The notes beneath the pieces are model-generated. The model worked only from the letters and a program-made list of their open reading frames with translations, made no database searches and was not told the origin of the DNA. A DNA stretch of 64,000 bases from Cephalotus follicularis (taxonomy: Eukaryota; Streptophyta; Magnoliopsida; Oxalidales; Cephalotaceae): positions 248,001 to 312,000 of the forward strand of contig BDDD01002387.1 of assembly GCA_001972305.1 (NCBI GenBank), written 5' to 3'. The first letter of the stretch is position 1, and each line of letters starts with the position of its first letter. Made by a program: the position numbers and the translations under genes. Of the stretch, positions 18,447 through 60,259 are shown piece by piece.

Positions 18447-18605
18447 GTCGACACTTTACTGCTTTCAAAACTGACCCGTCGACGCTTTCATGCCTTTAAA
18501 CTGGATAGTCGACGTTTTATACTTATGTTTTCTAAAACTGTCGACTCTTTTGTGTGTTAAACTGAATAGTCGACATTTTATGTTTTTAAACTAAACTAGT
18601 CGACG
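18447..18605. repeat. Six-unit GTCGAC array in LTR D, about 30-base period
   Basis: GTCGAC occurs at 18447, 18478, 18508, 18540, 18569 and 18599, so steps are 31, 30, 32, 29 and 30. Between the sites a looser word (tttaaactgaatagt and variants) recurs. The 3' LTR copy (28141-28298) keeps the spacing exactly, but three of six sites carry a C-to-T or G-to-A change at the CG. Confidence 0.88.
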
Positions 18606-19160
18606 CTTAGTGCCTTGTTTTGTGAAATGGCACTGTTTCTCACTGTTTTCAAATTCAAACTGTTTCTTCTTTAAATTGATCCCATAGGGAGCCTCCCTAA
18701 GGCCTCGTATCCTATGCGAATCATCTTTTAGCACCGTTGAATCTTAAATCAAGTGATTCTTGAAGAAAATGCAACAAAAGAGTTTCATACAAATGGGTTT
18801 TAAGAATGGTTAAGATAGCTCCTTTTGGACGTCTGGGTCCGGATATCCAATTGGACTTCCTCTCCATTGTTTTACAAACTTCGATAGGGACCAACAACTG
18901 TTACTGAAAACTATTACTGAAACTGTTATTGAAACTGTTCCTAAATACTGTTACTGAAAACTGTTTTATAACTGTTTCAACGGATGTGGATCTTGCATTG
19001 ATCCTTTAGGTCCCTATCATTTCCACTATTTACTGTTACTATTACTGGGTGCGACTACTGTATGATTACTGTCATGATTGATACTGTTGAGACCAAACGA
19101 GATAACCCATTCATACTCTTCATTTCTGTCATGAAGGTTATGAATGTTAGACCACATCAT

Positions 19161-19285
19161 ATAGGCCGGGACCATTGTGGACGGTCGAGATGATATAGGC
19201 TGGGACCATAGTGGATGGCCGGAGCAATATAGGCTGGGACCATAGTGGACGGCCGGAATAATATAGGCTGGGATCATAGAGGACA
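19161..19285 (+). repeat. 34-base tandem repeat in LTR D, four units
   Basis: The unit begins ataggctgggaccatagtgg and ends near gagcaat. Four units are present here and five in the 3' LTR (28855-29020), so the array has changed by one unit since insertion. Confidence 0.85.
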
Positions 19286-19680
19286 AGCCATACTGTAAAC
19301 ACTGTGTGGTGAATGTTATCTCAAGCCTACTCATCTATGACTCAGAGAGTGCGTAGATAGTGGGATGAACCTATGGATTGTTTGTTCCCATGTACTGTTA
19401 CTGAGTGTCTGCAGACCTATGGCCTTGGATGTGATTAGGACTAGCTAGATATACCCCGCTTAGGGACGGTTGGTATATCGAAGCTGTCCGCAACTGTACA
19501 CTGATATACTGCACTACACTGTTACTGCCACTGTTACTGTCCACCGTTACTGCTCACTATGCGTTGTACTGTTACACGGCATACTGCTACACTGTCACAC
19601 TACTGTATTGATGCATACATTGCATATTGCGATACTGTTGCATACATAGCACATAGTATACCCTACACGACATTATGTCA

Positions 19681-19714
19681 CTGACCCATTTCCCCTGTAT
19701 GCGGAATGGGTCAG
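19681..19714. other. Conserved inverted repeat CTGACCCATT...AATGGGTCAG in LTR D
   Basis: Exact ten-base arms with a 14-base loop. The 3' LTR copy at 36854-36887 is also exact. The arms are the same as in LTRs A and H, and K differs by one base. Confidence 0.75.
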
Positions 19715-20126
19715 GCTCACACCCAGGTGATGGTTCACAGTGAAAGGGGTCGAGATGGATGGATACTTAAGCTTGATCTTGGATAGTAGTGGTGTTGGGA
19801 TTGTGTTGTTATTGTATATGGTTTCGTTATGATCATGTTATGGATTTACTTATATGAATTGTATCAAATGAGACAGGCTGAGATGGATAGATTATCTGTA
19901 GCATATTTTGATTTACCATTGTTTAGCATAAAAATGTGCTGTTTTTAATGATTTATTTGTGATATTTTTATGCTTGGAATGGACTACTTTGGTTGCATTG
20001 TGACGATTTTCAGGTACAAGAGCAAAAGGACCAAAGTGCAAGAATACTACCCAAAGTTGTGCAAATTGTAGCTTGAAAGTGTAAAGATTGAAGAATTGAC
20101 AAATTCTGCAGAAACAGAGTAAAACA

Positions 20127-20419
20127 CGTCGATGTATTTCATAGGGATCGATGTATTTTTTGGGTTTGCAGTAAACGCGTTGATGTCTTTTGTTGCGGAT
20201 CGATGTCCTTTCTGGGATTACAACCTATCTTCAAAAGCTATGAAAAAGACATCGACGTCTTTCATCAAACGAATCGACGTCTTTGTGCAAATTCGACCTG
20301 TAAATTTTGGATCAAAACGCATCGACGCCTTTCATCATAGGGATCGATGGCCATTAAGCGTATCTCAGCAAACGGCATTTTTTACAAAACGCGTCGATGT
20401 CCAACCAAAGGCGTCGACG
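20127..20419. repeat. TCGAYG array in solo LTR F
   Basis: Sites of the form (C/G)(G/A)T(C/T)GA(C/T)G start at 20127, 20146, 20178, 20198, 20250, 20272, about 20291, 20320, 20342, 20392 and 20412. Steps are 19, 32, 20, 52, 22, 19, 29, 22, 50 and 20: an alternation of about 20 and 30 with some sites lost. Spacers vary. The 18-mer aaagacatcgacgtcttt (20245-20262) is also present in LTR B. Confidence 0.85.
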
Positions 20420-20508
20420 TCTTCTTCTGCAGCAGAAATAGAAAGTTAGATTTTTTGCCAGATTTTGTAACTAGGATTTATTTATTTCCGTTTCTAATCA
20501 GTTTTGTA

Positions 20509-20518
20509 GTATAAAAAC
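20509..20518 (+). promoter_or_regulatory. TATA box of solo LTR F
   Basis: The string gtataaaaac lies about 100 bases downstream of the last array site, so the array is in the upstream promoter position. Confidence 0.5.
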
Positions 20519-21888
20519 AATACAAGGCCGGCCAAATTGAGTGTATGGAGGCTGGTAGAAACCCTATTTTTTCTTTGACAATTTTAGATTCTTTTACAAT
20601 GTTTAGTAGCTAAACTCGTCAAGGTTTTGCGGAAGAACAAAACCTAGATTGTTATTGTTTCAATTCCATCAATAAAAATCCTTGAATATTTGATTTGTTA
20701 TTCAAATATTTTTGCCTTCGCACACACTTTGTCTGTCTGATTAAAATCCACAAACATCTTGTCGGTGAAGCTAAAAGTTGGTGAATAAATGGTGCTTAAT
20801 TGAATCAACGGAGTCTACTCATACGGTTTGTCACAACGAACACACTTCGTATAGACCTAGCATGTCTACTCATACGTCTTGCCGCCGTTGCCGTACTTCG
20901 TATAGACCTAGCATGTCTACTCATACGTCTTGTCATCACCGTCGCACTCCGTATCGACCTAGCTACCGCTGGTTATCAAGGTATGATCGTTCAATTAAAT
21001 GGAATTGTTCAATATAATCTACGGTGAGTTTCTATACCCTAAAACCGCTTTCTAATTATATTTTTTTTTTCACTTCTATTCATTGTTTTGATTCGTTTTA
21101 AATTTGCATGTTTTATTTCTTGGTGTTTCGAATTCAGTGTTTTTAACTCTCAAAGTCTTAATTCGCTGTTTTGATTATTTATTTTATTTTGCATAATTAG
21201 GAGTAGTTTTCATAATTAAACCTTGATTTGGTATACTTCGCCTAGGTTGAATAACTAGTTTAACGTTTCCCTGCGTTCGACCCGTTACTGCATGATCCGC
21301 ATACTTGCGGCTATAAATTTTAAAACATCATTCTTTTTGTCAGTGAACAACCATATTGTATATGATCTTACTTATGGTAATGGATATGGGTTTGGTTATA
21401 TGAGTTGTAAAAAGGGCCTTGAGTTATAAATGAACTGTATGGGTTTATATACGTTGATATGTATATAGAGATTGTATTATTCAGCTCTCGACTTGCCGAC
21501 ATGTGGCAGTGCTTATGATATATGTGTTGATGTATTGAACAGGGACAAGCCCATCTTTTGAGGCATTAGAATGATGTAATAATGAGTTTGTAATTGCTGA
21601 GGGCTGAGCCCCATATGTACATAAACAGTTGATTCCTCCTCCGTGAATATATAAAAATGTGTTTTTCTTTACAGGGGGTTAAGTCCAATAGACGAATACA
21701 TCATGACCGATTTTTGGGAGATTTTAAGAGTTAGTTTTTATTCCAATTGACTATTTCGCTGATGTATATGACCTTGACTTTTATGTATAGCAATTTGGAA
21801 TATGAATATAATGATGAAATGACTGAACGGATGGTATATATCACGTGTCGGATAATAGGGGTTTACTTTTGCGGTTCGGGGTGTGACA

Positions 21889-24639: not shown

Positions 24640-24860
24640 CCCTGCATGCTCGGCCCCGGCTGTCCATGCCCTCATCCCCAGCTGTCCCTGCGCTCAGCCC
24701 CAACTGTCCATGCGCTCATTCCCGGCTGTCCATGCGCTCAGCCCCAGCTGTCCATGCGCTCAGCCCCGACTGTCCCTGCGCTCAGCCCCGATTGTCCATG
24801 CGCTCAGCCCTGGCTGTCCCTATACTCAGCCCCGACCGTCTGTCCTCAGCCCTGGCACGT
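24640..24860. repeat. 22-base tandem array in LTR K
   Basis: The unit is close to ctgtccatgcgctcagcccc plus two bases, repeated about nine times with point changes. Because 22 is not a multiple of three, all three forward frames stay open, which explains three overlapping apparent frames here. None is a gene. Confidence 0.85.
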
Positions 24861-26086: not shown

Positions 26087-26803
26087 TCCTCCCCTCCTTA
26101 CAGAAATCTCGTCCCGAGATTTTCTAGGATAAAAACAACTGGGGGTATCTAGCTTGCATATCATCTTCTCTTTCCCACGTGGCTTCTTCCACTCCGTGGT
26201 ATTGCCATAATACCTTCACTAACGGAATGGTCTTGTTTCTTAACTATTTAATTTGTCGGTGAATAATCCGGATAGGTATCTCTTCGAAACTCAGATCCGT
26301 TCTCAACTCTAGTGGCTCCCATTGCAAAACGTGAGAAGGGTCGGGATGGTACTTCCGTAGCATCGAAACATGAAACACGTTGTGCACATCCGTCAGGCTG
26401 GGTGGTAAGGCAACAGCGCCCACTCTATCAAGGATCTCAAAAGGTCCTATAAACCGAGAGGTCAACTTCCCTTTCTTGCCGAACCTCATAATTCCTTTAG
26501 TCCGAAAGACTTTAAGGAATACATGATCGCCCACAGCGAACTCCATCTCTCGCCTGCGGTGGTCTGCATAACTTTTCTATCGGCTTTGTGCTATACGGAG
26601 TCTTTCCTGGATAATCTTTGCCTTCTCAATCGTGTCTTGTACAAGCTTAGGTCCCACAAGACTCTATTCACCTACTTCAAACCAAGAGATCGGGGTTCTA
26701 CATTTCCTTCCATAGAGAGCCTCGAATGGTGCCATACCAATGCTGCCTTGAAAACTGTTGTTGTACGAGAACTCTACTAGCGGTAGATGGTCTTCCCAGC
26801 TGA
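26087..26803 (-). pseudogene. Element K pol: end of integrase and C-terminal domain
   Basis: From 26800 leftwards on the minus strand: [28 protein letters not shown] (integrase core end), then VGDHVFLKVFRTKGIMRFGK, KLTSRFIGPFEILDRVG, VHNVFHVSMLRKYHPDPSHV and the chromodomain-like tail (VKVLWQYHG, EEATWERE). A short in-frame loss follows RVGAV. The 5' part of pol is missing; K is truncated at about 26803 where a G-run and D's 3' LTR begin. Confidence 0.88.
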
Positions 26804-26893: not shown

Positions 26894-28140
26894 GAAACCA
26901 GGCATTAAAACGCCTGGTGCGTCAAAAGAAAGGGAGAGACATGAGAGAGCGCCAGAACCAGAGAGAGTGGGAGAGAGATAGCGCGCCGGAGAAAACGACG
27001 CCGGGCGAGGAGCTCAACAGCTGGAAGCGTGCTGCGCAGGTCCATCGCCCACGGTAACCCCTCTCCTTATCTCTTTTCCTTCTTCTCTCTTCTCCCCCGA
27101 CATTTTACCGTCACTGTCATCGCCACCAGTCACTGATTCCGTCGTGGGTAAAGGGCCGGTCTTTGTCTAAAAGACCAGCTCTTCCCCTTTTGGTGATTGT
27201 TGAGGCGTCGTTCGGTCGAAATCGGCCGGATTTGAGCTGCCGAGTCGACTCCGCAAACCCAACTCGCTGCTGCCTATGATCGCTCATTTGGCACTGAGTC
27301 ACGGCGAGTTACGGCCACCAGTGGCTTGATTGAAGGATTTTGATGTCGGTTATGGCGTTTTTGAGTGTTGACCAGAACTGTTGAAGTCCGGCGAGTTGAC
27401 TCAGTGAGTCGAACTCACTGTCGGCCGTGACTGCCGGTTCCTTGGTGAGTCTCTGGCTGTGACGCCTAGAACTGATGATTGTGTGGCATTTTTGGGTGGT
27501 GACTGGAATTGTGGATGATCGACGAGTTGACTAAGTGAGTCGAACTCACTGCCGCCTACGACACGGCGCTCGGCGCCGAGTCTCCAACAGTTCTGAATAG
27601 ATCAACCAGTGTGGAGCCTACTGGTGGAGCGATCGGAGCCATGGGGTGTTTGCCGAAATCTGGTCGGGACTCCGGTGGTGATAGTGTTTGATTCATATGT
27701 ACAGTGTAACAGGAATGTATTACGTATGCAGTGTGAAGAGATTGACCGAGGATAGGAGGTTCCCAAGCGATGGCGATTCGATAGCCGGTTCAAGGTTGGA
27801 GGAGCTGACAGTTCGTCGGTGCTGCTACAGAATCCCTTGAATAGCAAGTGCAACTGTTGTTACTGCTATAACAGGTAGGTTATACTATTTGCACTGCATT
27901 CATGCATTTCAATGAATTGTGTGGATTATTACTGAACTACTGTCACTGAGTGTTGATTGATTGCTGTAGTTACTATGTAAACCGTTACTGTTTGACTGTG
28001 ATTACTGGTCATTGCACCAACGGGGAACTGGGTATGGACTTACAAACTGTTTATACTGAACTGAAACGGATTTCATGGATTTTGGACTTAGTTCCATTGA
28101 TTTGCGAACTTTTTTGCGAACTGCTGATTCTGATGAAACC

Positions 28141-28298
28141 GTCGACACTTTACTGCTTTCAAAACTGACCCATCGACGCTTTCATGCTTTTAAACTGGAT
28201 AGTCGACGTTTTATACTTATGTTTTCTAAAACCATCGACTCTCTTGTGTGTTAAACTGAATAGTCGATATTTTACATTTTTAAACTAAACTAGTCGAC
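28141..28298. repeat. GTCGAC array in the 3' LTR of D, partly mutated
   Basis: Sites at 28141, 28172, 28202, 28234, 28263 and 28293 keep the steps 31, 30, 32, 29 and 30 of the 5' copy. Those at 28172, 28234 and 28263 read atcgac or gtcgat, the expected products of methylated-C deamination. Confidence 0.88.
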
Positions 28299-29210
28299 GC
28301 TTAGTGCCTTGTTTTGCGAAATTGCACTGTTTCTCACTGTTTTCAAATTCAAACTGTTTCTTCTTTAAATTGATCCTATAGGAAGCCTCCCTAAGGCCTC
28401 GTATCCTATGTGAATCATCTTTTAACACTGTTGAATCTTAAATCAAGTGATTCTTGAAGAAAAATGCACCAAAAGAGTTTCATACAAATGGGTTTTAAGA
28501 ATGGTTATGATAGCTCCTTTTGGACATCTGGGCCCGGATATCCAATTGGACTTCCTCTCCATTGTTTTACAAACTTCGATAGGGACCAACAACTATTACT
28601 AGAAACTGTTAATGAAACTGTTATTGAAACTGTTACTAAATACTGTTACTGAAAACTGTTTTATAACTGTTTTGACGCATGTGGATCTTACATTGATCCT
28701 TTTGGTCCTTATCATTTCCACTATTTACTGTTACTATTACTGGGTGCGACTATTGTATAATTACTGTCATGACTGATACTGTTGAGACCAAACGAGATAA
28801 CCCATTCGTACTCTTCGTTTCCGTCATGAAGGTTATGAATGTTAGACCACATCATATAGCCCGGGACCATTGTGGACGGTCGAGATGATATAGGCTGGGA
28901 CCATAATGGACGGCCAGAGCAATATAGGCTGGGACCATAGTGGACAGCCGAAGCAATATAGGCTGGGATCATAGTGGACGGTCGGAATAATATAGGCTGG
29001 GACTATAGAGGATAAGCCGTACTGTAAACACTGTGTGGTCAATGTTATCTCAAGCCTACTCATCTGTAACGCCCGGGGTTTTCGTTAATGTGTAATATTG
29101 CTTTTCCAATGTAATTCTATACCTTGTGTTAATGAAAACCGTGTTTTCCCTCTTTGGTGTGTTGAAATGTTGCAAGAAAGTGTGTTTTTGTGTGTTTTTG
29201 GTGTAGGGGG

Positions 29211-29341
29211 CAGCCGACTGCCACAGGGAGGCAGTCGACTGGATCCCTCTGCCGAGGCGTGGCAGCCAGCTGCTATGGGGAAGCAGCCGGCTGGTGGGAG
29301 TGTCGACAGAAATAGCCGACTGCCAAGCCAAGGCAGTCGAC
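29211..29341. repeat. First CAGYCGAC array in LTR E
   Basis: The eight-base word CAG(C/T)CGAC or close variants starts at 29211, 29232, 29263, 29284, 29300 (weak), 29313 and 29334. Leaving out the weak site, steps are 21, 31, 21, 29 and 21. The last site lies about 110 bases upstream of the TATA-like ccataaaac. The spacers are unlike each other. Confidence 0.85.
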
Positions 29342-29875
29342 AACCATGTGCCAGACAGCCCACGTGCTGTCAGCCTTTAAGTGACAAAAAGGAGAGTGTT
29401 TTGGTTTTTATGGCAGATGGCAGTGTGAGGGGCCGAGGGTTTCTCCATAAAACACAGCTTTCCTCTCCTCTTCCTCCATCATTCTCTGCGTTTTCAAGAG
29501 TGTTAGTGAGTTTGAGAGTGAAAGTGTGTGTGTGTGTGTTGAGGCTTTGAGGAGTTTGTGTTGGAACCGGAAGCTTGGAGGCTTGACAGTGGGAGTTCGG
29601 ACCTGTTGAAGGTTGCTGGACGTGTTGGAGGTGCAAGGGCCTCGGATTTAGACTTAAAGAGGTGGATTGCAGCTCCTAACTTGGAGTTCTAAGGTAGGGG
29701 GAAGTCGTTTTTGCAACGTAATTTCAATTGTAAATGTTTTTTATGGAATAAAATGCATGTTTATGTTATATTGTGAGCTTGGCATGTGTTATTACGTAAA
29801 TGTGTTATTTTGGGTTGTGTTGGGTGTGTGATTGTGGCTGTTTTAGCTGCTGGTTTTTACATCTACTGCAGAATC

Positions 29876-30162
29876 CAGCCGACTGCCTATGGGTCCAGCC
29901 GACTGTTCTTGGGAGGCCAGTCGACTACCCATGTTTGTTTCCAGAAAAATGCCTGCAGAGGTTGTGTATTCGACTGCTGTAGGTCAGCAGCCGACTGTGG
30001 GGGTGTGGACAGCCGACTGTCCTGAGGGCCAGCCAACTGTCAAGAGTGGACAGCCGACTGTCTATGTAGACAGCCGACTGCCTGGTTATGTAGCTGACTG
30101 CCTGGGTAGGGCAGCCGACTACTTTGAGGGAAACAACCGACTGCCAGTGGGAGGCAACCGAC
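29876..30162. repeat. Second CAGCCGAC array in LTR E, 21-base period
   Basis: Sites start at 29876, 29896, 29918, 29967, 29988, 30010, 30030, 30051, 30071, 30091, 30112, 30134 and 30155: steps 20, 22, 49, then 21, 22, 20, 21, 20, 20, 21, 22 and 21. The word GCCGAC is the core of the plant dehydration/cold response element (A/G)CCGAC. Spacers of 10-14 bases are variable and G-rich, so this is not a simple tandem duplication. Confidence 0.88.
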
Positions 30163-31364: not shown

Positions 31365-31376
31365 TGGTATCAGAGC
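31365..31376 (+). other. Primer binding site of element E (initiator Met tRNA)
   Basis: TGGTATCAGAGC lies four bases after the end of the 5' LTR. Confidence 0.92.
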
Positions 31377-31467
31377 ATATATCCATTTATATGCTTATCT
31401 TGGATACTAAATTGGCAATTAACATGTTTCCTCAAGAGGACTAATGACATCTTTCTTATAGGGACCT

Positions 31468-34591: not shown

Positions 34592-34623
34592 TACAACTTT
34601 AATTTCGAGGACGAAATTCCTTG

Positions 34624-34636
34624 AAGGAGGGGTGGA
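34624..34636 (+). other. Polypurine tract of element E
   Basis: The purine-rich aaggaggggtgga immediately precedes the 3' LTR, as required for plus-strand priming. Confidence 0.85.
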
Positions 34637-36491
34637 TGTAACGCCCGGCGTTTTCGTTAATGTGTAATATTGCTTTTCCAATGTAATTTTATACCTTGTG
34701 TTAATGAAAACCGTGTTTTCCCTCTTTCGTGTGTTGAAATGTTGCAAGAAAGTGTGTTTTTGTGTGTTTTTGGTGCAGGGGGCAGCCGACTGCCACAGGG
34801 AGGCAGTCGACTGGATCCCTCTGCTGAGGCGTGGCAGCCAGCTGCTATGGGGAAGCAGCCGAGTGGTGGGAGTGTTGGCAGAAACAGCCGACTGCCAAGC
34901 CAAGGCAGTCGACTGCCATGCGCCAGACAGCCCACGTGCTGTCAGCCTTTAAGTGACAAAAGGGAGAGTGTTTTGGTTTTTATGGCAGATGGCAGTGTGA
35001 GGGGCCGGGGGTTTCTCCATAAAACACAGCTTTCCTCTCCTCTTCCTCCATCATTCTCTGCGTTTTCAAGAGTGTTGGTGAGTTTGAGAGTGAAAGTGTG
35101 TGTGTGTGTTGAGGCTTTGAGGAGTTTGTGTTGGAACCGGAAGCTTGGAGGCTTGACAGTGGGAGTTCGGACCTGTTGAAGGTTGCTGGACGTGTTGGGG
35201 GTGCAAGGGCCTTGGATTTAGACTTAAAGAGGTGGATTGCAGCTCCTAACTTGGAGTTCTAAGGTAGGGGGAAGTCGTTTTTGCAACGTAATTTCAATTG
35301 TAAATGTTTTTGATAGAATAAAATGCATGTTTATGTTATATTGTGAGCTTGGCATGTGTTATTACATAAATGTGTTATTTTGGGTTGTGTTGGGTGTGTG
35401 ATTGTGGCTGTTTTAGCTGCTGGTTTTTACATCTGCTGCAGAATCTAGCCGACTGCCCGCGTTAGGCAGTCGACTGCCTATGGGTCCAGCTGACTGCTCT
35501 TGGGAGGCCAGTCAACTACCCATGTTCGTTTCCAGAAAAATGTCTGCAGAGGTTGTGTAGTCGACTGATATAGGTCAGCAGCCGACTGTGGGGGTGTGGA
35601 CAGCCGACTGTCCTGAGGGCCAGCCGACTATCAAGAGTGGGCAGCCGACTGTCTATGTAGACAGCCGACTGCCTGGTTGTGTAGCCGACTGCCTGGGTAG
35701 GGCAGCCGACTACTTTGAGGGAAACAGCCGACTGCCAGTGGGAGGCAGCCGACTGTTGGGGGCCTGTTTTGCCCGTGAACATATGTATGCATCGTGTCTT
35801 GTGGTGTTTTGCTTCGTGAAGCTTTATAAACTGTTTTGAGCATTGTGATTATTGAGTTTCAACTGTTATATCACCTTTATGTAAGTGCATTCTAGCTTAA
35901 TGAAAATCATTACTTTACACAAAAATATATGTTTTGAGAAATATATACTTTCGAACCGTGAAAATGACTTCCAAAAACACCGTGAACTGAGTTTTATGAT
36001 ATTGAGAATCGAGAACCATGACATCGTGAAAATGAGGGCAGCCGACTACTTTGAGGGAAACAGCCGACTGCCAGTGGGAGGCAGCCGACTGTTGGGGGCC
36101 TGTTTTGCCCGTGAACATATGTATGCATCGTGTCTTGTGGTGTTTTGCTTCGTGAAGCTTTATAAACTGTTTTGAGCATTGTGATTATTGAGTTTCAACT
36201 GTTATATCACCTTTATGTAAGTGCATTCTAGCTTAATGAAAATCATTACTTTACACAAAAATATATGTTTTGAGAAATATATACTTTCGAACCGTGAAAA
36301 TGACTTCCAAAAACACCGTGAACTGAGTTTTATGATATTGAGAATCGAGAACCATGACATCGTGAAAATGAGTTTGTTTTCAGGTATTTTGTTTTATAAA
36401 CTACATGGAAAATTGTTTATCGTTCTCTGTATAAGCTGGATATCTGTTAAATTGCCATGTTGTATGTTGTTAATGCAAGCGGGGTGTGACA
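34637..36491 (+). repeat. Element E 3' LTR, rearranged
   Basis: It matches the 5' LTR with few differences up to about 35700. It then has a 336-base direct duplication (35700-36035 and 36036-36371) and lacks about 0.8 kb corresponding to roughly 30495-31285 of the 5' LTR. It resumes at atcgttctctgtataagc and ends GGGGTGTGACA. The duplication adds copies of the GCCGACTG word. Confidence 0.93.
35700..36371 (+). repeat. 336-base tandem duplication in the 3' LTR of E
   Basis: Both units start gggcagccgactactttgag and end at catcgtgaaaatgag; they are practically identical. The junction shows two or three bases of shared sequence (ag/gag). The 5' LTR has a single copy, so the event is more recent than E's insertion or occurred during reverse transcription. 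Confidence 0.93.
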
Positions 36492-39689: not shown

Positions 39690-39699
39690 CTATTTATAG
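39690..39699 (-). promoter_or_regulatory. TATA box of copia J LTR
   Basis: CTATAAATAG on the minus strand, identical to the TATA box in both LTRs of copia element I. The nearest array site is about 128 bases upstream. Confidence 0.65.
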
Positions 39700-39826: not shown

Positions 39827-40254
39827 CGTTGACGTGTACGCATGGCGTTGACGTCTATCCTCTTTTGCGTTGACTCTTATAGCTTTCTGTGTTATCACTC
39901 CAAGCTTTAGTTCTGTTTATGTTGACGTCCATAATTGGCGTTGACGTATAAAGACAAGATGTTAACGCTATACTGTCTTTGAGTTGCCGTCAAAACCTAC
40001 TGTCCGAAATATGCACCATTTGCGTTGATGTCTTGATATGGCGTTGACGTCCATAGGTAAGACGTTAACTCCACTTGCTTTCTATGTTAACTTCCAAGTC
40101 ATTGACGTTGACATCTTTTGATAGGCGTTTACGTAAATCATATTTTCCCAGCACGTTGACGCGGATAGTGGATAATGTTGACGAGAATCATCTTTTCAAG
40201 CCCAGAACGTGTATCCATTCCCAGTACGTTGACGCGTAAAATATGATCGTTGAC
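39827..40254. repeat. GCGTTGACG array in the LTR of copia J
   Basis: The word (C/T)GTT(G/A)AC starts at 39827, 39846, 39868, 39890 (weak), 39920, 39939, 39960, 40023, 40042, 40063, 40085, 40106, 40126 (weak), 40154, 40176, 40227 and 40248. Steps are mostly 19-22, with others near 28-30 or 51. TTGAC is the W-box core and TGACG the bZIP/as-1 core, known plant regulatory words. Spacers differ. Confidence 0.87.
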
Positions 40255-40421
40255 GCCAAAAGAACTGATATGCAAGTTTTAGATTTCTTGCAACATAAGT
40301 TAACTTTAGATAACTTAGATAAACTTTTCCTTCACATCAAACACACATGTCAGATGTTTTGTAATCATCAAAACAAAGGATAAACAAGGATTGTAACATA
40401 TAAATGTCAATAAAACCATCA

Positions 40422-42056: not shown

Positions 42057-44475
42057 TGTAACGACCCGAATTTCCCTTGTACTATTCATGCATACTTTGC
42101 ACCATATTGTACTGTACGGATTTCTATTGAACCGTATCGCACTGCATTGAATTGAGGTATTCCTATACCTATTGCTATTGTATTGATCACATGCATGCAT
42201 AGTCGGGATGTTTGGGCTGAGTTTCGGAGAGTTGGAAGAATCAGCTATATAAGCCAATTCCTTAGCCATTTCTCTCATTTTTCTCATTCTTCTCCACCTC
42301 TCTCTGTCCCTCTCCTTCTCTTTCTTGCTGAGTGGCCTCCATCTTCCTCCCTAGCAGCCCCGGATTGCATCTCAATCAACAAGGATAGCGATTTCAAGTT
42401 GAAGGTTGCTGTTTGAGTGAGATAGCAGCTGATTCTTGGGTGATTTCAGCCGACTGATTGTTTGGAAGCTCAACTTTTGAAGCTTCGGATATAGGTAGGA
42501 CTTCCCTACTTGAATTGCCTATTGCTTAATTTCAGGATTGATTGAATTGCAAGATTGATTGTATTGTATAGAATTGAAAAACTAGGGTTTTTATTGATGT
42601 CCTCGATCTAACTGATCTAGAAGGATTAAATTGAAATTAGGAGGTTGTAACAAGTTTTACTAACCTTAAATGATTGATTTTAACCCTTAGTTTTCAAAGA
42701 ATGGCTTTAAATTAGATTTTGACTTGAATTGGCCACTTTTTCTGCACAAAAATTGACCCTGCCCAACAAAGACATCAACCCCAGCCCATGGACGTCGATG
42801 TCTTTCGCTTTAGAATGTTGTATCCTTGATTCCACAGCAAAGACATCGACGTCTTTGCCTTGAGATGTCTTCTCCCCAGGAAAGACATCGATGCTGAACA
42901 TCGATGCGTATTCCCAGGCTACTTTTATTGAATCGTGTTGACGTCTTTATTCAAAGACATCGACGTCCTTCGGCCAGATCTCTATATGAATAGAGAAAGA
43001 CATCGATGTCTTTCAAAGACGTCGATGTCCTTCTGATGTCCTTCTACCGTTTTAAAGGAATGCCCTGATACGCATCGATGTCTTTGGCCAAGGACATCGA
43101 CGGCTTTCGGGCTGAATGGAATTTTTAACTGTTTTAAAGCTAGTTTTCAACTCCTTTTCACATTGCCGCTTGACCAGAGCCTCACTTGAGGTATTCAAGA
43201 GTTTGAAACACAATTTTCTACAATTTTCAAAGATTGGATTGATAAATTGATAGGGTGACAGCTTGAGCCATAGGCGACGATCCAGTGACTTTCAATAACC
43301 GGATAGATACTTCTTCTTATCTCATTGATTCGATTGTCAGCGTCTATTGGCTACTAACTGGTTGATTGATTGATTGATTAAGCCATAAGTGTTGTGAGTC
43401 TAAGTTTGGAATGTTGGACGCATATTCCCATTTCTCCCTTAGACATCACCACTTATTGTCATTATACTGATAGATTGATTGTATTGTATGGATCCTATAG
43501 AGCGACCTTATGATTTGTGTCAGCATGTTAGGTTGTTGACTCTGTCCACCTATTCTGTCGATCGTATCATTTATTGAATTGTATTGACCTGCTGACGAGC
43601 AGTATTGTATTGATTGAAGATTGATGCTCCCTTGAGGGTCGTAGATCCCTAAGGGTAACAGTAGCTCCCTCGGTTTTAGCTCATCGATATTGTATTGACC
43701 CAGCCATAGGCTGGAAGATCTACGAGTTCCAGACCTAATCAGTCTGAGAACAGTAGATAGATCTCCCACCTTTTTCGAAGGACTACCTTCCGTGGGATTG
43801 ATCATTACTATTGATTGACATTGTACTAACCCGAGGTTGCATGCTCTATAGGATATGATTGTTTGATTGGGTGTTTGATACACCACCATTGAGTGTCTGC
43901 CATTGATTGATTGTTATAGATCCTATTCATATGATCTGTGATTGGCCAGTGTCATACGGATAGTCTGATCGCCAATTGTACACATGCATTTGCCATATCA
44001 TGCATTTATATTGTACACCGCACATTTATATTGCATAGACTGTCACTGATATTGCACGTTATACGTGCATGCTGCATGGGGTTTCTGCTTAGACTTGTGG
44101 CTAAGCCCATCCTTTGGGGTGGGGCTGTGTTGTACTTTTATGTGCAGCATAGGTAGGACAGCAGGTAGTAGCGGACAGAAGGATTGAAGATTCGGTGCAA
44201 CCGCGTGACCGTTTGATGTGACTGAGCTTGGATTGTAAATGTACCGACGAGTATTGTTTTGAAATGTAATGTGTATTGAAAAGAAATGACTGGCATAGTA
44301 TTGCAACTGAATAGTATTGTATGGAATCGCAGGGATGGAATATCGTACCGCACAATGACATGTTTTATAAAGTTTTTAGTTTTCCGCATTTTTATATTGC
44401 TAGTCCTGACCATTGTATTGTATATTGGATTGAGAGTAATGCCACGTGTCTGTCCTCCGGGCGTGGGGTGTTACA
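42057..44475 (+). mobile_element. Solo LTR B
   Basis: B starts TGTAACGACCCG and ends GTGGGGTGTTACA, with a perfect tgtcc duplication (42052-42056 and 44476-44480), inserted in H between protease and RT. It is 2,419 bases. It has a TATA box ctatataag (42244-42252), a donor-like TAG|GTAGGAC at 42494, a TCGAYG array (42773-43101) and no open frame of interest. A second, cut copy of this family is at 15366-16109. Confidence 0.93.
42773..43101. repeat. ATCGACGTC array in solo LTR B
   Basis: Sites start at 42773, 42793, 42816 (weak), 42844, 42863 (weak), 42886, 42899, 42936, 42958, 43001, 43020, 43073 and 43095. Steps of 19-23 dominate, with 28, 43 and 53 and one 13+37 pair. The common surrounding word is aaagacatcgatgtcttt, nearly palindromic. 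An 18-base form is exactly shared with solo LTR F. Confidence 0.85.
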
Positions 44476-45297: not shown

Positions 45298-46036
45298 TAT
45301 TGGGAACAGGCTCAAGCGCAGCGGAAAAATGACATACAATGCGGACATTAGGGACGATTAATTTTAAATTTCATCCAATTGATTAATCCCCAAGCAATGG
45401 GATACCCTAATCTACGTTTGAATTGTCCCAATGAGTGCCAAGGAACCCTAATTGAACAACCAATCAAACTGAAACCCAAAACCAAGCATGGGGTAGAACA
45501 GGTCGAAACGATTGGGTTGCCATAAACCCTATAAATGGACTCCAATAGGAGGCACACAAGGAAACACATAAACCCTAGCCAAGAGTCCAATCAACCCGAA
45601 CCCAAACATCCCTAACCCTAAGGGATGGCAAGCAAACCACAAAGAGGGCAAGGGGTTCAGCTAGGGTTTTCTAACCCAAGCTACAACCCGCTGCCACGGC
45701 CACAAGAACAAGAAGAGAAGTGATTCTTACCAAGGTGAAGACTCCTTCCTTCAAGTCAAGCTCCCTTTACCCTTTGAATCCAAGAACTCCAAGATCCTAC
45801 TTAAGCCACGAATAAGGAAGATTAAGGATGCAAGCCAAGTGTTTATCCTACACTAAATCACTCTAGGTAAAGATAAGATGCAGTGTATAAGTTATCTCCA
45901 CCTATAATGAACTTTGAGTGGTGAAAGGAGGGTTGAAAATGACTGCAAAACGAACCAGACATTTTAGGCGTCAACGCGTAGGCGATGGCGTCGACGCGTA
46001 TGATAGCAGTAGAAAGAAGAGAGACGACAGGGAAGA

Positions 46037-46067
<31 letters not shown>

Positions 46068-46111
46068 AAAGGTAAAGTGTGTTGTGTAAGCTTTGACCTC
46101 TTGTCATTTAG

Positions 46112-46121
46112 CTATTTATAG
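46112..46121 (-). promoter_or_regulatory. TATA box of copia I LTR (left copy)
   Basis: CTATAAATAG on the minus strand; the right LTR has it at 53950-53959. The GTCAACGC array begins about 87 bases upstream. Confidence 0.65.
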
Positions 46122-46207
46122 TCTTTGACTTCTCTCTCCACTTTATCCCAAAAAGTCATACCGACTTCTCTCAAGTCTGGTGAGAAGTCGTGTGTCAACC
46201 AGGATGG

Positions 46208-46531
46208 CATCAACTCCATGCGTCTCATCCTATCTTGGCATCAACGCCAATGATAAGATGAAATAGGTGCGTAGTCTCTTTTTGTCTTAGCGTCAACGCA
46301 TATACATCATAGTGTCAATGCGTAAGTCACTGGTTTTCGAAGCGTCAACGCATTGCTCTCCACAGCGTTAACGTCCAGGGACTCAATCTAGTTTTGGTGT
46401 TGACGTATGCTCTTCATGCGTCGACGTTTAAGCTATTGGTTTTCACTGCGTCAATGCACTCTCTTCATGACATTAAGGCCAAGCGACTCAACTAGACATG
46501 GCGTCAACGCATGCTCTCCATGGCATCGACG
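46208..46531. repeat. GCGTCAACGC array in the left LTR of copia I
   Basis: Sites start at 46208, 46239, 46291, 46313, 46343, 46366, 46398, 46419, 46449, 46471, 46502 and 46524. Steps are 31, 52, 22, 30, 23, 32, 21, 30, 22, 31 and 22: a strict alternation of about 22 and 31, or a 53-base unit with two sites. Two further sites lie downstream of the TATA box at 45969-45995. Confidence 0.9.
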
Positions 46532-47841
46532 CGTAAGACAAATATGAGACAATCTCTTCTATTTTCAAAACCCTCTGCATGGAATATTTCATCGTGGCAT
46601 TACATGGACCTAAATCCATCAAATGAAATAATCACTAACAAAGCAACATCTTCCCTGATGTTGTTCTTTCACTAAATGACACGTCTCCCACAAATTATCA
46701 ACATGTTCAAAGTCAGGCAGGACCTGAAAGCCTGTCGTTCTTCGGTATGATGACAAATTCCCAGAATCTCCCGATTTCTGGTACGACCATTCTAATAGTC
46801 ACCGACTATCAAAACAACCCCGGTGTGAGCACCAGTCACCCCCCAGATTTGTGTATTACCACGTCTATCTATCATGGCCCAAATAGCCAGTCGCTTTATC
46901 CAGTCATCGACATATGTGTCATGTTTCCCTCGTCATACTTGGCTCCGATCACAGCCTAGGGTTTGGATGAATGTCACCCCTAGTATTGCTGCGATAACTA
47001 TGAATCTATGATCGCACTGAGACTATCGGTAGACCTCCCATGGGAACCTCTCATTCCTAGTCCACCAATGTCTGATCAGGACTTTTAAGTTTGCAACGTA
47101 CATAGATAAATAGAGTCGATCACCCTCAGCCCAGGTGTGACGATCCCTTATTGCGCACTCGCCCATACATCTCAATTCAGCTCCCACAAGACCCAAAGGC
47201 AAACCTTTTGCCCGCACGTGGATAGTGCTTGGGAAGGACAAAATCAAAGTCAAGCAGTCACTACACAATACATGCCAGCCACTCAGGTCAAAGGACACAA
47301 CGCAGGCTATAGACCTACTAGTCACCATAGACTATACACTACCGAGACCATAGGAATCCTATTGACATTAGGTATTGACTATCCAAATAGTTTTCCTGTT
47401 GGTGGGTCTTTTCAGTGTCACGCTCTGTAGCATACACCTCACATTTAGCATTAGGGATAAACCCAAATGGCTATGAGATAACCATCCTCCACTGCTAACC
47501 CGAGAGCAAGATTAACGTGACAAGTCTTCGCGGTTCATCAATGGCCCAAAGAAAGTGAACCTATGACTTGGAACATTTATCACGGGGAGTAAGGATCTCA
47601 TTCTCATAACCCTCTTGGCAAAAGATCCAACCCCTTTGATGTGACAGGGCGCTATATGACATACAGTTGATTACGAATAACTATTCTATTCCTTTGGTTG
47701 GTTGGGATGAGCCACATAGCCTTGCCAATAAATAATTATGCACATGAAATATGAATGGAATTCAGAATTGTACAAATCAAGAGTGTATATATACAAACAA
47801 TGAGCCACATCGTGGCATACATGGACACCCCTAACCTAACA

Positions 47842-47857
47842 ATCTCCCACTTTTCCC
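47842..47857 (-). other. Polypurine tract of copia I
   Basis: The complement of atctcccacttttccc is a purine-rich stretch next to the start of the 3' LTR. Confidence 0.8.
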
Positions 47858-53229: not shown

Positions 53230-53231
53230 CT

Positions 53232-55669
53232 TGTTGGGAACAGGCTCAAGCGCAGCGAAAAAATGACATACAATCCGGACATAAGGGTTTAGGGCCGATT
53301 AATTTTAAATTTCATCCAATTGATTAATCCCCAAGCAATGGGATGCCCTAATCTAAGTTTGAAATGATAGGGTTGCCATAAACCCTAGAAATGGACTCTA
53401 AGAGGAGGCTCACAAGGAAACACACAAACCCTAGCCAAGAGTCCAATCAACCCGAACCCAAACATCCCTAACCCTAAGGGATGACAAGCAAACCACCAAG
53501 AGGGAAAGGGGTTCGGCTAGGGTTCTCTAACCCAAACTACAACCCGCTGCCACAGCCACAAGAACAAGAAGAGAAGCGATTCTTACCAAGGTGAAGACTC
53601 CTTCCTTCAAGTCAAGCTCCCTCTACCCTTTGAATCTAAAAAGTCCAAGCTCCTCCTTAAGCCACGGATAAGGAAGATCAAGGATGCAAGCCAAGTGTTT
53701 ATCCCATACTAAATCACTCTAGGTAAAGATAAGATGCAGTGTACAAGTTATCTCCATGTATAATGAACTTTGAGTGGTGAAAGGAGCATTGAAAATAGAT
53801 GCAAAACGAACCAGACATTTTAGGCGTCAATGGGTAGGCGATGGCGTCGACGCGTACGATAGTATCAGAAAGAAGAGAGATGGCAGTGAAGAAGAGAGAG
53901 AGAGAAAAGGTAAAGTGTGTTGCGTAAGCTTTGACCTCTTGACATTTAGCTATTTATAGTTTTTGACTTCTCTCTCCACTCTATCCCAAAAAGTCACACC
54001 AACTTCTCTCAAGTCTGGTGAGATGCCGTGTGTCATCCAGGATGGCGTCAACGCCATGCGTCTCATCCTATCTTAGCGTCAATGCCAACGAGAAGATGAA
54101 ACATGCGCGTAGTCTCTTTTTGTCTTAGCGTCAACTCATATACATCATAGCGCCAACGCTTAAGTCACTGGTTTTCGAAGCGTCAACGCATTGCTCTCCA
54201 TAGCGTTAACGTCCAGGGACTCAATCTTGTTTTGGCATTGACGGATGCTTTTCATGGCGTCGACGTTTAAGCTACTGGTTTTCATTGCGTCAATGCATGC
54301 TCTTCATGACGTTAACGCCCAATGACTCAACTGGACATGGTGTCGATGCATGCTCTCTATGGCGTCGATGCCTAAGACAAAGATGAGACAATCTATTTTA
54401 TTTTCAAAACCCTATGCATGGACTATTTCATCATGGTATTGCATGGACCTAAATCCATCAAATGAAATACTCACTAGCAAAGTAACATCTTCCCTGATGT
54501 TGTCCTTTCACCAAGACATGTGTCCCACCACATATCAACCTGTTCAAAGTTAGGCAAGACCCGAAAGCCTGTCATTCTTCGGTATGATGATAGATTCCCA
54601 GAACATCCCGTTTCTGGTACGACCATTCTAATGGTCACCGACTATCAAAACAGCCCTTGTGTGAGCACCAGTCACCCCCTGGATTCGTGTATTACCTCTA
54701 TCTATCATGGTCCGAATAGCCAATCACTTTATCTAGTCATCGTCATATGTGTCATGTTTTCTTCATCATACTTGGCTTCGATCACAGCCTATGGTTTGGA
54801 TGAATGTCACCCATAATATTATTGCGATAACTATGAATCTATGATTGCACTGAGACAATCGGTAGACCTCCCACAGGAACCTCTCGTTCCTAGTCCACCT
54901 ATGCCTGATCAGGACTTTTAAGTCTACAACGTACATAGATAAATAGAGCCAGTTACCCTCAGCCCGGGTGTGACAATCCCTTATTGCGCACTTGCCCATA
55001 CATCTCAATGCTGCTCCCACAAGGCCCGACCCTTTTGCCAGCAAGTGGCTAGTGCTGGGGAAGGCAGAAATCAAAGTCAAGCAGTCACTACACGATGCAT
55101 GCCAGCCGTTCAGGTCAAAGGAGACAATTCATGCTATAGACCTACTAGTCACCGTAGACTATACACTACCGAGACCGTAGGAATTCTATTGACATTGGGT
55201 ATTGACTATCCAAATAGGTTTCCTATTGGTGGGTCTGTTCAGTTTCACTCTCTCTAGCATACACCTCACATTTATTTTTAGGGATAATCCCAAATGGCTA
55301 CGAGTTAACCATCCTCCACTGGTAACCCGGGAGCAATCTTAACGTGACAAGTCTTCGCGGTTCCTCAATGGCCCAAAGAAAGTGAACCTATGACTTGGAA
55401 CATTTGTCACGGGGAGGAAAGATCTCATTCTCATAGCCCTCTTGGCACGAGATCCAACCCCTTTGATGTGATAGGGCGCTATATGACATACAGTTAATTA
55501 CGAATAACTATTCTGTTCCTTTTGGTTGGTTGGGATGAGGCACATAGCCTTGCCAATAAATAAATATGCAAATCAAATATGAATGTAATTCAGAATTATA
55601 TAAATCAAGAATGTATATATACAAACAACGAGCCATATTGTAGCATACAGGGACACCCCTAACCTAACA
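53232..55669 (-). repeat. Copia I 5' LTR (right copy)
   Basis: It matches the left LTR over its length except a loss of about 95 bases near 53365. TATA box CTATAAATAG at 53950-53959. The GTCAACGC array runs from 54046 to about 54370 with steps 31, 52, 22, 30 and 23 at its start, the same as the left copy. It ends at the gag sequence of element H. Confidence 0.93.
54046..54370. repeat. GCGTCAACGC array in the right LTR of copia I
   Basis: First sites at 54046, 54077, 54129, 54151, 54181 and 54204. The spacing is that of the left LTR, while individual sites differ by single changes (for example tgttaacg, catcgatg). Confidence 0.88.
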
Positions 55670-56750
55670 AGGATTGCCTTATCTGACCAGAAAAACTAGG
55701 TGGACTACCGACACTCTGAGGTGAGCCACCCTGACTAGGACTACTATTTTCAGATCTCTGGGACTTGTTACTGCTCCTATAACTCCTCCCCGACTGCCAT
55801 CCTGAAGAAGCAGGTCTACTAAAACCAGTTTGAATCCGTAAATTACGTAGCTCTTCTGATACAACCTCAATATCTCTGGCTCTGCTAGCCAACTCAAAGA
55901 AGGATCTCAGTCTAAACGGTATCAGCCTCTGTAAGATATCTGGTCTAAGCCCACCAAGAAACTTCTTACCCTTCCTTGCTTCTGTGCCAACCATATGAGA
56001 AGCTATCCTTGAAAATTCAATAAATTTAGCCTCGTACTGGGCTACAAACATGTTACCTTGGGTTAAGCCAAGAAATTCAGCCTCCCTCTTATCAACTTCG
56101 GCCTCAGAATAATACTTCTCATTCAACTCTGTTCTAAACATATCCCATGAATTGGGTATCCCCGATTCATCCCAAGAGGCAGCAACCATTCTCCACCAAT
56201 GTTCTACTTCGCCTTGTAGCATACAAGTGGCGAACATAACTTTCTCAGAGTCTGAACATCTCAAGACTCAGAATATTTTCTCTATTTGCATCAGCCATCT
56301 CTCAACAGTAACATCCTCAGGTTCCCCCATAAAAGCTGGAAGATTTAACTTCAAAAACCTGATTAAAGGATCCTCCATGAGTGTACGTATATCAACTGAT
56401 CTCCTTGTTGTTTCGGCACGGCTAGTGGGCCTTACAATTGGGGTTTGCTCCGGTGCCTCTACTGCACGCCTAACTGGCCTTGCAACTGGGGTTTGCTCAA
56501 CTGTAGCTGCTTGCCGCTGCATAAATTCATTCATTTGGTTCATCATGTCATACATCTTCCTCATAAAATATCTGGGTTCTCCTTGGCTAGGTGCGACAAA
56601 TTCTGCTTCTTGGCTCACATTCTGTTCCTCTTGTTCTTCAACATATCTACTGGTTCGGGTACATCTAGTCGACGGCCCTGCCTTAGCTCTTCCTGCAGCT
56701 CCTCTTTGATGACCATCCATGTCTACCCTGTATATGAGACAAAAGGTCAA
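55670..56750 (-). pseudogene. Element H gag, N-terminal and central part
   Basis: Probable start at 56720 (MDGHQRGAAGRAKAG; element E gag starts MDGRRW). The gag domain reads DPLIRFLKLNLPAFMGEPED, VERWLMQIEKIF, a single in-frame stop near 56265, VMFATCMLQGEVEHWWRMV, FLGLTQGNMFVAQYEAKFIE, FLGGLRPDI and a serine-rich tail. It is cut at 55670 by copia element I and continues at 45297. Family: gypsy chromovirus gag. Confidence 0.92.
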
Positions 56751-57318: not shown

Positions 57319-57343
57319 CTGACCCATTATAAGAATGGGTCAG
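57319..57343. other. Conserved inverted repeat CTGACCCATT...AATGGGTCAG in LTR H
   Basis: Exact ten-base arms with a five-base loop; the same arms as in LTRs A and D. Confidence 0.75.
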
Positions 57344-58204
57344 CAACCCATGGCTGTGTAGGCTATACTATATGCTATGAAATGCAGCAGTTATACAGAT
57401 ATATATATGCATGACATGTGACATGCATGAATGGAAATTGTGGACAACGTCAGTATACCAACCATCCCTAACCAGAGGTATACTTGGCTAATCCTAAATC
57501 ACATCAAAGGCCATAGTCCTGCATACACTCCATAAAACAATCCATAACCATCCATGGGGACAATCAATCCATAGGGTCAAGTACTCCTCTACCTCTCTGG
57601 CCCGAGATAGTACCCCTACCGTCTATACACCCTCTATGCCATAGCCGTGTGGAGCATAGGATAACACCAGTCACATAATCCATACCATACCATAATACTA
57701 GTCTCGAAGGTACTAGCCCATAATAGAGATATGTGCGATTTATGCCATAAACGTACCATATCCATGCCATACCATATCCATCCACAATGCGGTGATCCCC
57801 GTAGGTTCACCCCAAAATGGAGGATTACCATATCCATAATATGTGGCCTTGATAAGCATAAACATGTGTGATTTTAATGATTTATTTATTATACTTTTAT
57901 GTTTGGAATAGACTACTGTGGTGGTGTTTATGTGATTTTCAGTTATTATTTCATTATTGCGGAATAAGAGAAAATGGAGCTAAAACGCTAATTTTTGAGT
58001 TAAAGTAGTTTAAAGTCAATGATCGGTTAAAGAATGCACCCACTTAAGCAAGAGAAGTCGAAATTTAAAGCTCAAAAGATATTGAATATTGGACTCTTTT
58101 TATTCATAAAATTATTTGGAGCACTTTTAGTTCTTGGGCCGATTTATTCTGAAGATCCGATGAAGAGATATTGCAAGAAAACAAATGTTGAAGCATTTGA
58201 AGCT

Positions 58205-58500
58205 ATGTGCCACGTGTCACCCCGCAACACGCCCAACATTCTTCACACGCCATCTACCATGCAATGCATCAGCCGGCCTTGCATCTCTCACATGCCGCCC
58301 CACATGCAGAGCCCAATATGCAGCCTGCCAATCAACACATGCAACAACGCATGCGTCAACATGCCCATAAAGCCCAGCATCTCTCGCATCAAAGCTTCAT
58401 ACACGCCAACATGAAAGTCACGCACAAGATGGCCATAAAATCTGCCAATCAACACATGCATTCATCCAGCCCACTTACGCATCAACAGCCCATGCAATCA
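58205..58500. repeat. CATGC-rich array in solo LTR G
   Basis: Words catgc, gcatc and aacacatgc recur, for example at 58291, 58303, 58338, 58350 and 58360, with irregular 10-21 base steps. It ends roughly 90 bases upstream of the TA run, the same relation as the arrays of E, F, I and J to their TATA boxes. Confidence 0.6.
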
Positions 58501-58950
58501 ATCAATTCAATGCCCATATGAGGCCATGCAACCAACATCCACGAATCAGACCACGTTTTTAATTGAATTAGTTTTCTTTAGTCGACTGATATATATATAT
58601 GGCATAAGGCGACAATAGAGTGAAACGCACTCGAGAAAAGAGACGGCAGTAGAGGAGGAGCAACTGGTTTTTAATGACAAATCTTTTGAAGAAAATTGTT
58701 GTTATCATTGTCATCATGTCCGGTTAAGTATTTTAATCCCTAGATGTATATGAACTCATGTTATATATATTTTTCAGTTTTTGTTTCAAGTTTAATTGCA
58801 TGTTTATGAGACACTTTTTCTTGTTAATGTAGTGACAACATTGATGAGAAGAATTTTTAATATATAAAATCTGTTTTGATGATTTATTGTTAGTAGCTTT
58901 ATTTCATCTATATCATGCAATATTTTTTTATGTGATTGAACCAATGACAG

Positions 58951-59138
58951 CCTTTAACCAATCAACCTTTTGAGAGTATCAAGGTGTGACAGGATAGGTT
59001 GTACCTAGGCTAAATCACTAGTTTGCTATGTTAATCAAAGACACCCTTTAACCAATCAACCTTTTGAGAGTATCAAGGTTTGACAGGATAGGTTGTACCT
59101 AGGTTAATTCGGTAAATTTCTGCGCTAAACTGAAACTT
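58951..59138 (+). repeat. 94-base tandem duplication in solo LTR G
   Basis: The stretch beginning cctttaaccaatcaacc at 58951 returns at 59045 and is nearly identical through gataggttgtacctagg. Confidence 0.9.
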
Positions 59139-60017
59139 GTGCCATGAATTTGAATATATATACATGCGGGGATTCTCACATCTACGGGATTGTTGTCTCA
59201 TATTACTTTTCTTATTTATTTATTTTTGTACTTTACGCTAGATATTTAATTTGAATTGTTTAGTTTTTCATTAAATTAGTGTAATTCAAAACCAATCCTC
59301 TTTTCAATTCATTTTATTTGCATTGTTAACTTAGATTAAATTAATTTCGTATTCGTTATTTTTATTTAGTTGCATCCTAAGTTTATTTTTATAGCATATC
59401 CTTTCAGCTCTTCGTGGGAACGATCCCTACTTCCACTTGCTAAATTGTTAGATTAGGGTAATTTTGATTCGGCCTAACGACACCCATCAGGCCTGCACCC
59501 ATAATGCTTCATGACGGAAATGAATATTATTAATGGGTTATCCCGTTAAGTCTCAACCATAACAACCATCAATCATAGTCGTACCATACCTGTAGCCCAT
59601 TACCATATTTCCATTTAAAGGATAGGGACCTAACCATAAAGGATCACATAGGATCCATCCATCAAAACCATTTTCAAAACCATTTTCCAAAACCATTTTC
59701 CATAAAAATTTTCTTGGTCCCTAACGAAGTTGTAAAACAATGGAGAGGAAGTCCAACTAGGATATCTGCGTCCAGATGTCCCAATTAAGCTATAGTAACC
59801 ATTTATTGAAAACCATTTGAATAGAACTCTTTTGTTGAAACTTTTCTTTAAAGAATCACTTGAAAGTTGATTTGAAGATTAAAAGATGTTAAAACAGGAT
59901 TCACATAGGGTACAAGGCCTTAGGGACACTTTCTATGGAATCCATTCGAAGATAAAATCATTTGGGATTGAAAACCATTTTGAAATCACATGTTTGCATT
60001 GTAGATCCTTGTCTGTG

Positions 60018-60259
60018 CGTCGACACTTACGTAGAGCGTTGATGTTATATGTTGCACTGCAATGTTGCGCATAGACGTTATACGATGCATTGCAATGTTA
60101 CGCGTCGATGTGCTATGTGCATGTCGATGTTTCGCGTCAACGTGTTGTGCTGATTAGCACACAAAACGCAAAGGATCTCATAACGCGTCGACGCTCAAAC
60201 TGAACATCGACGTGCTAGGCACTGAAGGACACGTCGACGTGTAAGATGAACACGTCGAC
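60018..60259. repeat. GTCGACG array in LTR H
   Basis: Sites start at 60018, 60037, 60063 (weak), 60103, 60122, 60135, 60186, 60205, 60232 and 60253, so steps of 19, 19, 13, 51, 19, 27 and 21 among the good sites. It differs from its relative LTR D, where all steps are near 30. Confidence 0.82.

Follow-up and report, generated by a model that had tools for sequence, protein, structure and literature searches.

Contig BDDD01002387.1 of the Cephalotus follicularis assembly (GCA_001972305.1) carries, at positions 248,001 to 312,000, long terminal repeat (LTR) retrotransposons of the copia and gypsy superfamilies. Here, we describe arrays of a short palindromic word, CGTCGACG, and its variants in these elements; the window below is this whole 64,000-bp stretch, in which all coordinates are given. 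Arrays were found at each of the six LTRs (D, F, B, H, I, and J) where a preliminary description had placed them.

One copia element on the minus strand (RVT_2 at 48577-49293, primer-binding site [PBS] at 53229) accounts for two of the six, which form one case because H and I are its two LTRs. Its 5' LTR, I (53361..55670), holds eight sites at 54046-54370 under the CpG-transition-tolerant rule that defines our window site counts, with a TATAAAT box downstream (53952..53958, minus strand); its 3' LTR, H (45505..47842), holds eight sites at 46239-46531. Array F (39827..40255, minus strand; 12 sites, mostly of CGTTGACG/CGTCAACG type) lies upstream of a copia gag-like open reading frame (ORF; below the Pfam cut-off) and a Pol_BBD domain. 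A TATAAAT box at 39692..39698 (minus strand) stands 136 bp past the last F site (12.95 turns, computed here and below at an assumed 10.5 bp per turn), and CTATAAATAG at this box recurs in three sampled family copies (L035, L037, and L042). Array B (42793..43102, strand unassigned) has 10 sites of CATCGATG/CATCGACG type.

Array J (60018..60260, minus strand; nine sites) has a PBS (56911) about 3.1 kb downstream and, beyond it, a gypsy gag domain (PF03732, 55662-56267); its LTR ends are unmapped. A block of about 265 bp beside the array (59711..59975, minus strand) is common with D (18645-18897; 77-78% identity). Array D itself (18446..18605, plus strand; six GTCGAC-core sites, steps of 31, 30, 32, 29, and 30 bp) sits in a long LTR inferred to span about 17192-21886, with a PBS at 21892. 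The same LTR holds a second array (20127..20419, plus strand; six sites, steps of 51, 72, 70, 72, and 20 bp), followed by TATAAAA 90 bp past its end, and a copy of array D, 94% identical, occurs in a second D-LTR sequence (28140..28299, plus strand). The interior of D gave a single Pfam match (SH3_Tf2-1, 26247-26576, opposite strand), and D is called gypsy because it is related to J, the sole ground for that call. The six LTRs had been described as belonging to different superfamilies: copia (F and H/I) and gypsy (J) are both present, the six are not independent (H and I are one copia, and D is related to J), and B stands outside any superfamily call.

Two other repeats were noted in the window. 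A 22-bp/66-bp tandem repeat (GCTCAGCCCCGGCTGTCCATGC) occupies 24648-24840 in the internal region of element D, and a 25-bp repeat (CGGATCACCGACTGAGATGAGCCGA), a CpG word whose step is a non-whole number of turns, occurs at 5695-5865 and 13195-13282 (LTR pair 5537-6589/12954-14006).

Word specificity was measured in the 1.58-Gb assembly of C. follicularis (the Australian pitcher plant, Oxalidales), one GRAS ORF of which matches a C. follicularis record at 100% identity. Many copies of a given family enter the counts, which were made with the anagram CGACGTCG (identical dinucleotide content) and the reversed pattern as controls. Exact CGTCGACG pairs 12-42 bp apart numbered 24,004, against 8 for the anagram and 66 for the reversed pattern; at 42-72 bp there were 21,035 (42 reversed), and same-orientation CGTTGACG pairs numbered 6,374 and 6,412 (17 and 32 reversed). 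Within the window, CGTCGACG ranked first among its 64 palindromic anagrams (54 matches at ≤1 mismatch, 9 exact; runner-up, 39), and 57 of the 69 CpG-transition-tolerant sites in the 64 kb scanned fell within 3.3 kb of arrays. Observed site counts were reached by 0 of 1,000 Markov simulations for F, B, H, I, J, and the second D-LTR array. Under the same rule, array D has two sites, a count attained by 6 of 1,000 simulations; its six sites appear only with the looser GTCGAC core.

Base frequencies, with the core fixed by the search rule and the flanks free, were compiled for 150 CG-centred and 170 TG-centred sites. Information spanned 4 bp on each side of the core, with ≤0.15 bit beyond, and the consensus was about W A R R CGTYRACG Y Y T W, with looser flanks at TG-centred sites. 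The site is thus a bounded 16-bp palindrome, about WARRCGTYRACGYYTW; its frequent variants CATCGATG, CGTTGACG, and CGTCAACG have the CpG swapped for TpG or CpA. Asymmetric sites share one orientation per array (TG-TG, 25; CA-CA, 23; opposed, 5). Relative to transcription, the asymmetric variants in F and H/I are mostly in opposite orientations.

Steps between CGTCGACG sites genome-wide numbered 17,526 at 19-22 bp, 966 at 23-28 bp, and 3,445 at 29-32 bp, or 4,382, 161, and 861 pairs per bp, respectively. The spacing rule of the preliminary description therefore holds: both peaks persist, with a trough between them. Whole-genome spacing counts carry family copy number, though the spacers of the listed pairs differ. 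Among the distinct pairs listed, 34 of 47 for CGTCGACG (repeats dropped by eye) fell at 19-22 bp and 8 at 29-32 bp; for CGTTGACG, 56 of 93 fell at 19-22 bp and 23 at 28-31 bp. The strict alternation of short and long steps described for LTR I includes a degenerate repeat of about 52 bp carrying two sites. Nearest gaps in sampled loci had a period of 10.4 bp (184 gaps, R 0.56), in a sample biased by spacing-based choice (L001-L008 were selected for a 20-bp step, L009-L023 and L032-L051 for pairs 12-42 bp apart) and with some overlapping loci. The window alone, excluding H and the second D copy, gave 10.6 bp (31 gaps of 15-60 bp, R 0.53; p about 1e-4, uncorrected for 90 periods).

A word-blind scan ranked 6-mers by how often they pair at 19-22 and 29-32 bp. 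It covered 13 sources selected without regard to motif: the window, which supplies much of the material; six blindly drawn 10-kb pieces; and four GRAS plus two rbcL loci. The top 7 of 11 words above an 8-pair floor were pieces of CGTCGACG/CATCGATG and of a second word, CAGYCGRCTG, which had 50 matches in 17 sources against 0 for each of two rearranged control decamers. This word occurs throughout the LTRs of X, a gypsy element resembling chromoviruses (29065-36491; chromodomain match below the Pfam cut-off), in plus-strand arrays at 29211..29323 (steps of 21, 31, and 21 bp) and 29876..30122 (20, 92, 22, 20, 21, and 20 bp) and in the 3' LTR copy at 35467..36092 (steps such as 22, 20, 21, 20, 20, 21, 22, and 21 bp). 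With both X LTRs counted, its pair distances gather at 20-22, 40-43, 61-64, 81-84, and 102-104 bp; it is also present in L023, L026, and L029. At least two words obey the helical spacing rule, and the earlier claim of a single short word does not hold as worded. The X 3' LTR also contains an exact 336-bp tandem duplication (35699-36372) spanning second-word sites; the second-word arrays are partly tandem repeats, so duplication contributes to them. As for the rbcL sources, the whole genome yielded two short rbcL fragments only, and for this gene the assembly contains hardly any plastid DNA.

The 47 arrays in sampled DNA, many from overlapping loci, fell into 18 groups when grouped by array sequence alone (whole 3-kb loci over-joined families via shared element bodies). 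Unmasked, 17 representative arrays gave many weak local alignments with each other, the strongest being L048-J (132 bp, 72%) and L011-L049 (280 bp, 63%). Once the 8-bp cores were masked (5-19% of letters), only D-J and D2-L046 still aligned among the 17, and L048 gave no alignment to the 6 kb around J at an E value of 1e-5; most of the likeness is therefore that of the sites plus their spacing. Capture of one sequence by transfer between elements, the alternative that the preliminary description had raised, is accordingly not a general explanation, in a test of limited power because masking also loses L011-L049, grouped earlier by array clustering.

Site conservation was clearest in two families. 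Five family F sequences, with 69-76% identity to the window copy (two of them, L035 and L037, are 3.5 kb from each other and could be parts of a single element), had 86% identity in site columns, 69% in spacers, and 78% in flanks; CpG columns stood at 78% in sites versus 56% elsewhere. Indels within the F array measured 1, 10, 11, 20, and 21 bp, and those outside it were of many sizes. Family B gave 91% in sites and 79% in both spacers and flanks (CpG, 87% versus 58%), with array indels of 1, 1, 11, 12, and 19 bp.

In LTR I, the array ends 95 bp before TATAAAT, and 10 of 10 sites fall no more than a quarter turn from whole turns upstream of it (9.05, 12.0, 21.9, 24.1, 27.1, 29.2, 32.1, 34.2, 37.1, and 39.2 turns); in F, 8 of 13 sites are so phased to the TATA box. 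The arrays had been assigned to LTRs only, which proved too narrow: in copia elements with an extra PF20167 (Transposase_32) ORF after pol, an array lies directly before that ORF. From its place after pol, we infer that PF20167 is an env-like gene. A first look gave 13,073 PF20167 candidates in the genome, of which the best 150 were scored, all above the cut-off. Fourteen ORFs were taken from these 150 at about every tenth row, chosen by protein and not by motif, and 1,300 bp upstream of each was read. All 14 have upstream sites (96 versus 22 anagram matches). At a word cost ≤1 (CpG transitions counted half), every one has a site 39-42 bp before TATA, and in 12 another stands at exactly 21 bp; the remaining two have a weaker word there. 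The check for pol covered L027, and L065 and L027 are one element. A further locus, L018, has sites at 1480, 1501, and 1522, followed by a degenerate site at 1543 and by TATAAAG at 1564 (21-bp steps), and gave no alignment with the 14 stretches at an E value of 1e-5. L003 has sites before its PF20167 ORF without a clear TATA; L003, L018, and L027, all outside the window, are copia by RVT_2.

We read the arrays as probable upstream promoter elements of LTR retrotransposons, phased for a putative dimeric, probably host, factor, and put the probability of this reading at roughly 0.7. An activating role fits best because the sites are sequence-specific, bounded, phased, and beside two kinds of promoter. 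Each 16-bp palindromic site would probably be bound by a dimer, and sites two, three, or five helical turns apart would align the bound molecules along a single face of the DNA, shared in the best cases with the TATA box. This supposes that a protein binds the sites, that it is a host factor, and that it activates transcription; unrelated families would have acquired their sites independently and multiplied them afterwards by local duplication. The word is common to elements with and without the extra ORF, which makes a host factor likelier than one encoded by the elements. More tentatively, and with the odds somewhat against it, the sequences may reflect a single host dimeric factor (or small family) acting as a shared switch for a community of copia and gypsy elements. 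These would have gained sites separately, set them at helical turns to TATA, and used the module both for genomic RNA and for an env-like internal promoter, with other families using the second word. RWP-RK proteins (NLP/RKD) were considered as a candidate binder, the half-site GACGCTT resembling the nitrate-response half-site, and set aside: the literature examined gave no matching motif. The RKD-like motif RWCBTTTCRTYTTCY, from the portion of its source used here (PMC10114336), does not match the array site.

Several results weigh against the promoter reading. Site conservation is absent in L011/L010/L051 (sites 83%, spacers 84%, flanks 92%); sites also fall below flanks in H/I/L047 (81%, 73%, and 83%) and L005/L008 (74%, 67%, and 75%), and D and its copy (94%, 100%, and 94%) are too alike to tell. 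Array indels in these groups are mixed: 1, 1, 1, 1, 2, 8, 10, 10, 18, 31, 48, and 82 bp in H/I/L047; 2, 4, and 69 bp in the L011 group; and 1, 1, and 2 bp in L005/L008. These flank figures weaken the argument from conservation about as much as the core-masked alignments strengthen that for independence. Five of the 13 F sites are out of phase with the TATA box, array J has no TATAAAT or TATAAAA within 350 bp, and over the same distance 20 representative arrays show no excess of these strings (8 versus about 7.7 expected). A general association of the arrays with a TATA box was not upheld. Genome-wide, distances from exact CGTCGACG to TATA have a modest 21-bp peak (9 of 69 listed strings, repeats dropped by eye), and several of those nine come from one family. 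The 14 PF20167 stretches form one lineage, 62-95% identical. In the six blind 10-kb pieces, the degenerate site (24) modestly exceeded its anagram (15), and so the excess sits in the arrays.

The arrays could instead be silencing targets, whether as phased host-repressor sites or as hairpin palindromes feeding small RNAs, with their spread host-driven or a by-product. The sites are CpG-rich, neighbouring palindromes could pair in RNA, and palindromes of maize Sireviruses have reportedly been studied in connection with small RNAs. We hold this to be unlikely: an RNA hairpin requires no helical phase; F in the element sense reads CGTCAACG, which by its letters (not by folding) self-pairs only with two C-A mismatches; in-site CpGs outlast other CpGs in F and B, though not in the L011 group; and elements would not be expected to retain silencing sites beside their own promoters. 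Improbable, too, is a binder encoded by the elements themselves (the PF20167 protein or that of another extra ORF) that counters silencing as VANC does in VANDAL elements, an analogy drawn from the parts of one paper (PMC5735166) in which short motifs in non-coding arrays serve as VANC targets and the unrelated AT9TSD1 also carries the VANC6 motif. PF20167 is very abundant, and its ORF lies right behind an array; yet the family appeared in 0 of 30 window ORFs scanned (68 listed), including the ORF between the reverse transcriptase (RT) and 3' LTR of copia H/I. The VANC21 motif, in the same parts of that paper, is rare in other transposable elements, whereas here the word is common to copia and gypsy. 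The predicted PF20167 structure had a mean pLDDT of 37 (20-sequence alignment, all Cephalotus), unusable as a fold.

Slippage copying in units of about 21, 31, and 52 bp would make the helical spacing accidental, and the degenerate 52-bp repeat in H/I, the uniform orientation of asymmetric sites within an array, and the tandem repeats in the X LTR all fit such duplication. As the only process at work it is nevertheless very improbable, as families with no spacer alignment after core masking share these steps, the 10- and 11-bp indels of the F array are single turns and not whole units, and in F and B site columns are better conserved than spacers or flanks. Rotational positioning of nucleosomes by CpG steps recurring every 10 bp would account for the 10.4-bp period and is the most improbable of the explanations weighed, given a site bounded at 16 bp and the near absence, as pairs, of an anagram with identical dinucleotides.

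Among known systems, the heat-shock elements of ONSEN and the U3 boxes of Tnt1 are LTR sites for a host transcription factor, reportedly with few sites in single families; the Cephalotus arrays, unlike these, amount to thousands of phased sites spread over many families in one genome. Should a single host factor read them, a whole retrotransposon burst would be tied to one regulator. In Arabidopsis, the parts of the VANC paper used here (PMC5735166) describe the motifs YAGTATTAY or AGTTGTMC in arrays in non-coding DNA, with repeat gain and loss, chiefly in DNA-transposon families that encode the binder. The likeness is that of a short motif accumulated as arrays in non-coding transposon DNA; the Cephalotus word differs in being palindromic, common across LTR superfamilies, and spread over 18 array groups, not private to a family.

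The closest comparison is with the RM boxes of Sirevirus elements (Bousios et al. 2010, PMC2829016). In the parts of that study used here, these are palindromic, CpG-bearing, present in many LTR copies shortly upstream of TATA, and recurrent upstream of the env-like gene, with no single binding factor identified. Their core is CGG-CCG, the Vitis box CGGTCGACCG being nearest to the present word and Tnd-1 ACAATCGATTGT an exception; they are called Sirevirus-specific, and those same parts describe no helical spacing (PMC2829016). The Cephalotus sites are likewise palindromic and number 12 in F, 10 in B, 8 each in H and I, and 9 in J, against an RM-box minimum of eight per element; array D, with six sites under the looser rule, is under this mark unless the six of its second array are added. 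Arrays precede TATA in the copia LTRs F and I, with no TATA excess over 20 arrays as a whole. As with RM boxes, extra copies precede the env-like ORF (14 of 14 PF20167 stretches plus L018 and L003). RVT_2 types the array elements H/I, L003, L018, and L027 as copia and no further. An internal env promoter in Sirevirus was supported, not conclusively identified, in the parts of the 2010 work consulted (PMC2829016), and the arrays before PF20167 offer a located candidate for such a promoter in copia. A literature search, mostly outside subscription journals, found no paper on CGTCGACG in retrotransposons, and the titles and abstract beginnings of papers naming both C. follicularis and retrotransposons gave no such report. 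The Cephalotus arrays depart from RM boxes in their core (CGTCGACG, with CAGYCGRCTG as second word, not CGG-CCG), in their occurrence in gypsy J and its relative D, in their helical steps, and in a TATA box 21 bp from the last site. What is new relative to RM boxes is thus the core word, the gypsy members, the helical rule, the second word, and the phased internal TATA, which together suggest a sequence-level rule for building plant LTR promoters across superfamilies: a palindrome, a helical step, and sometimes a phased TATA.

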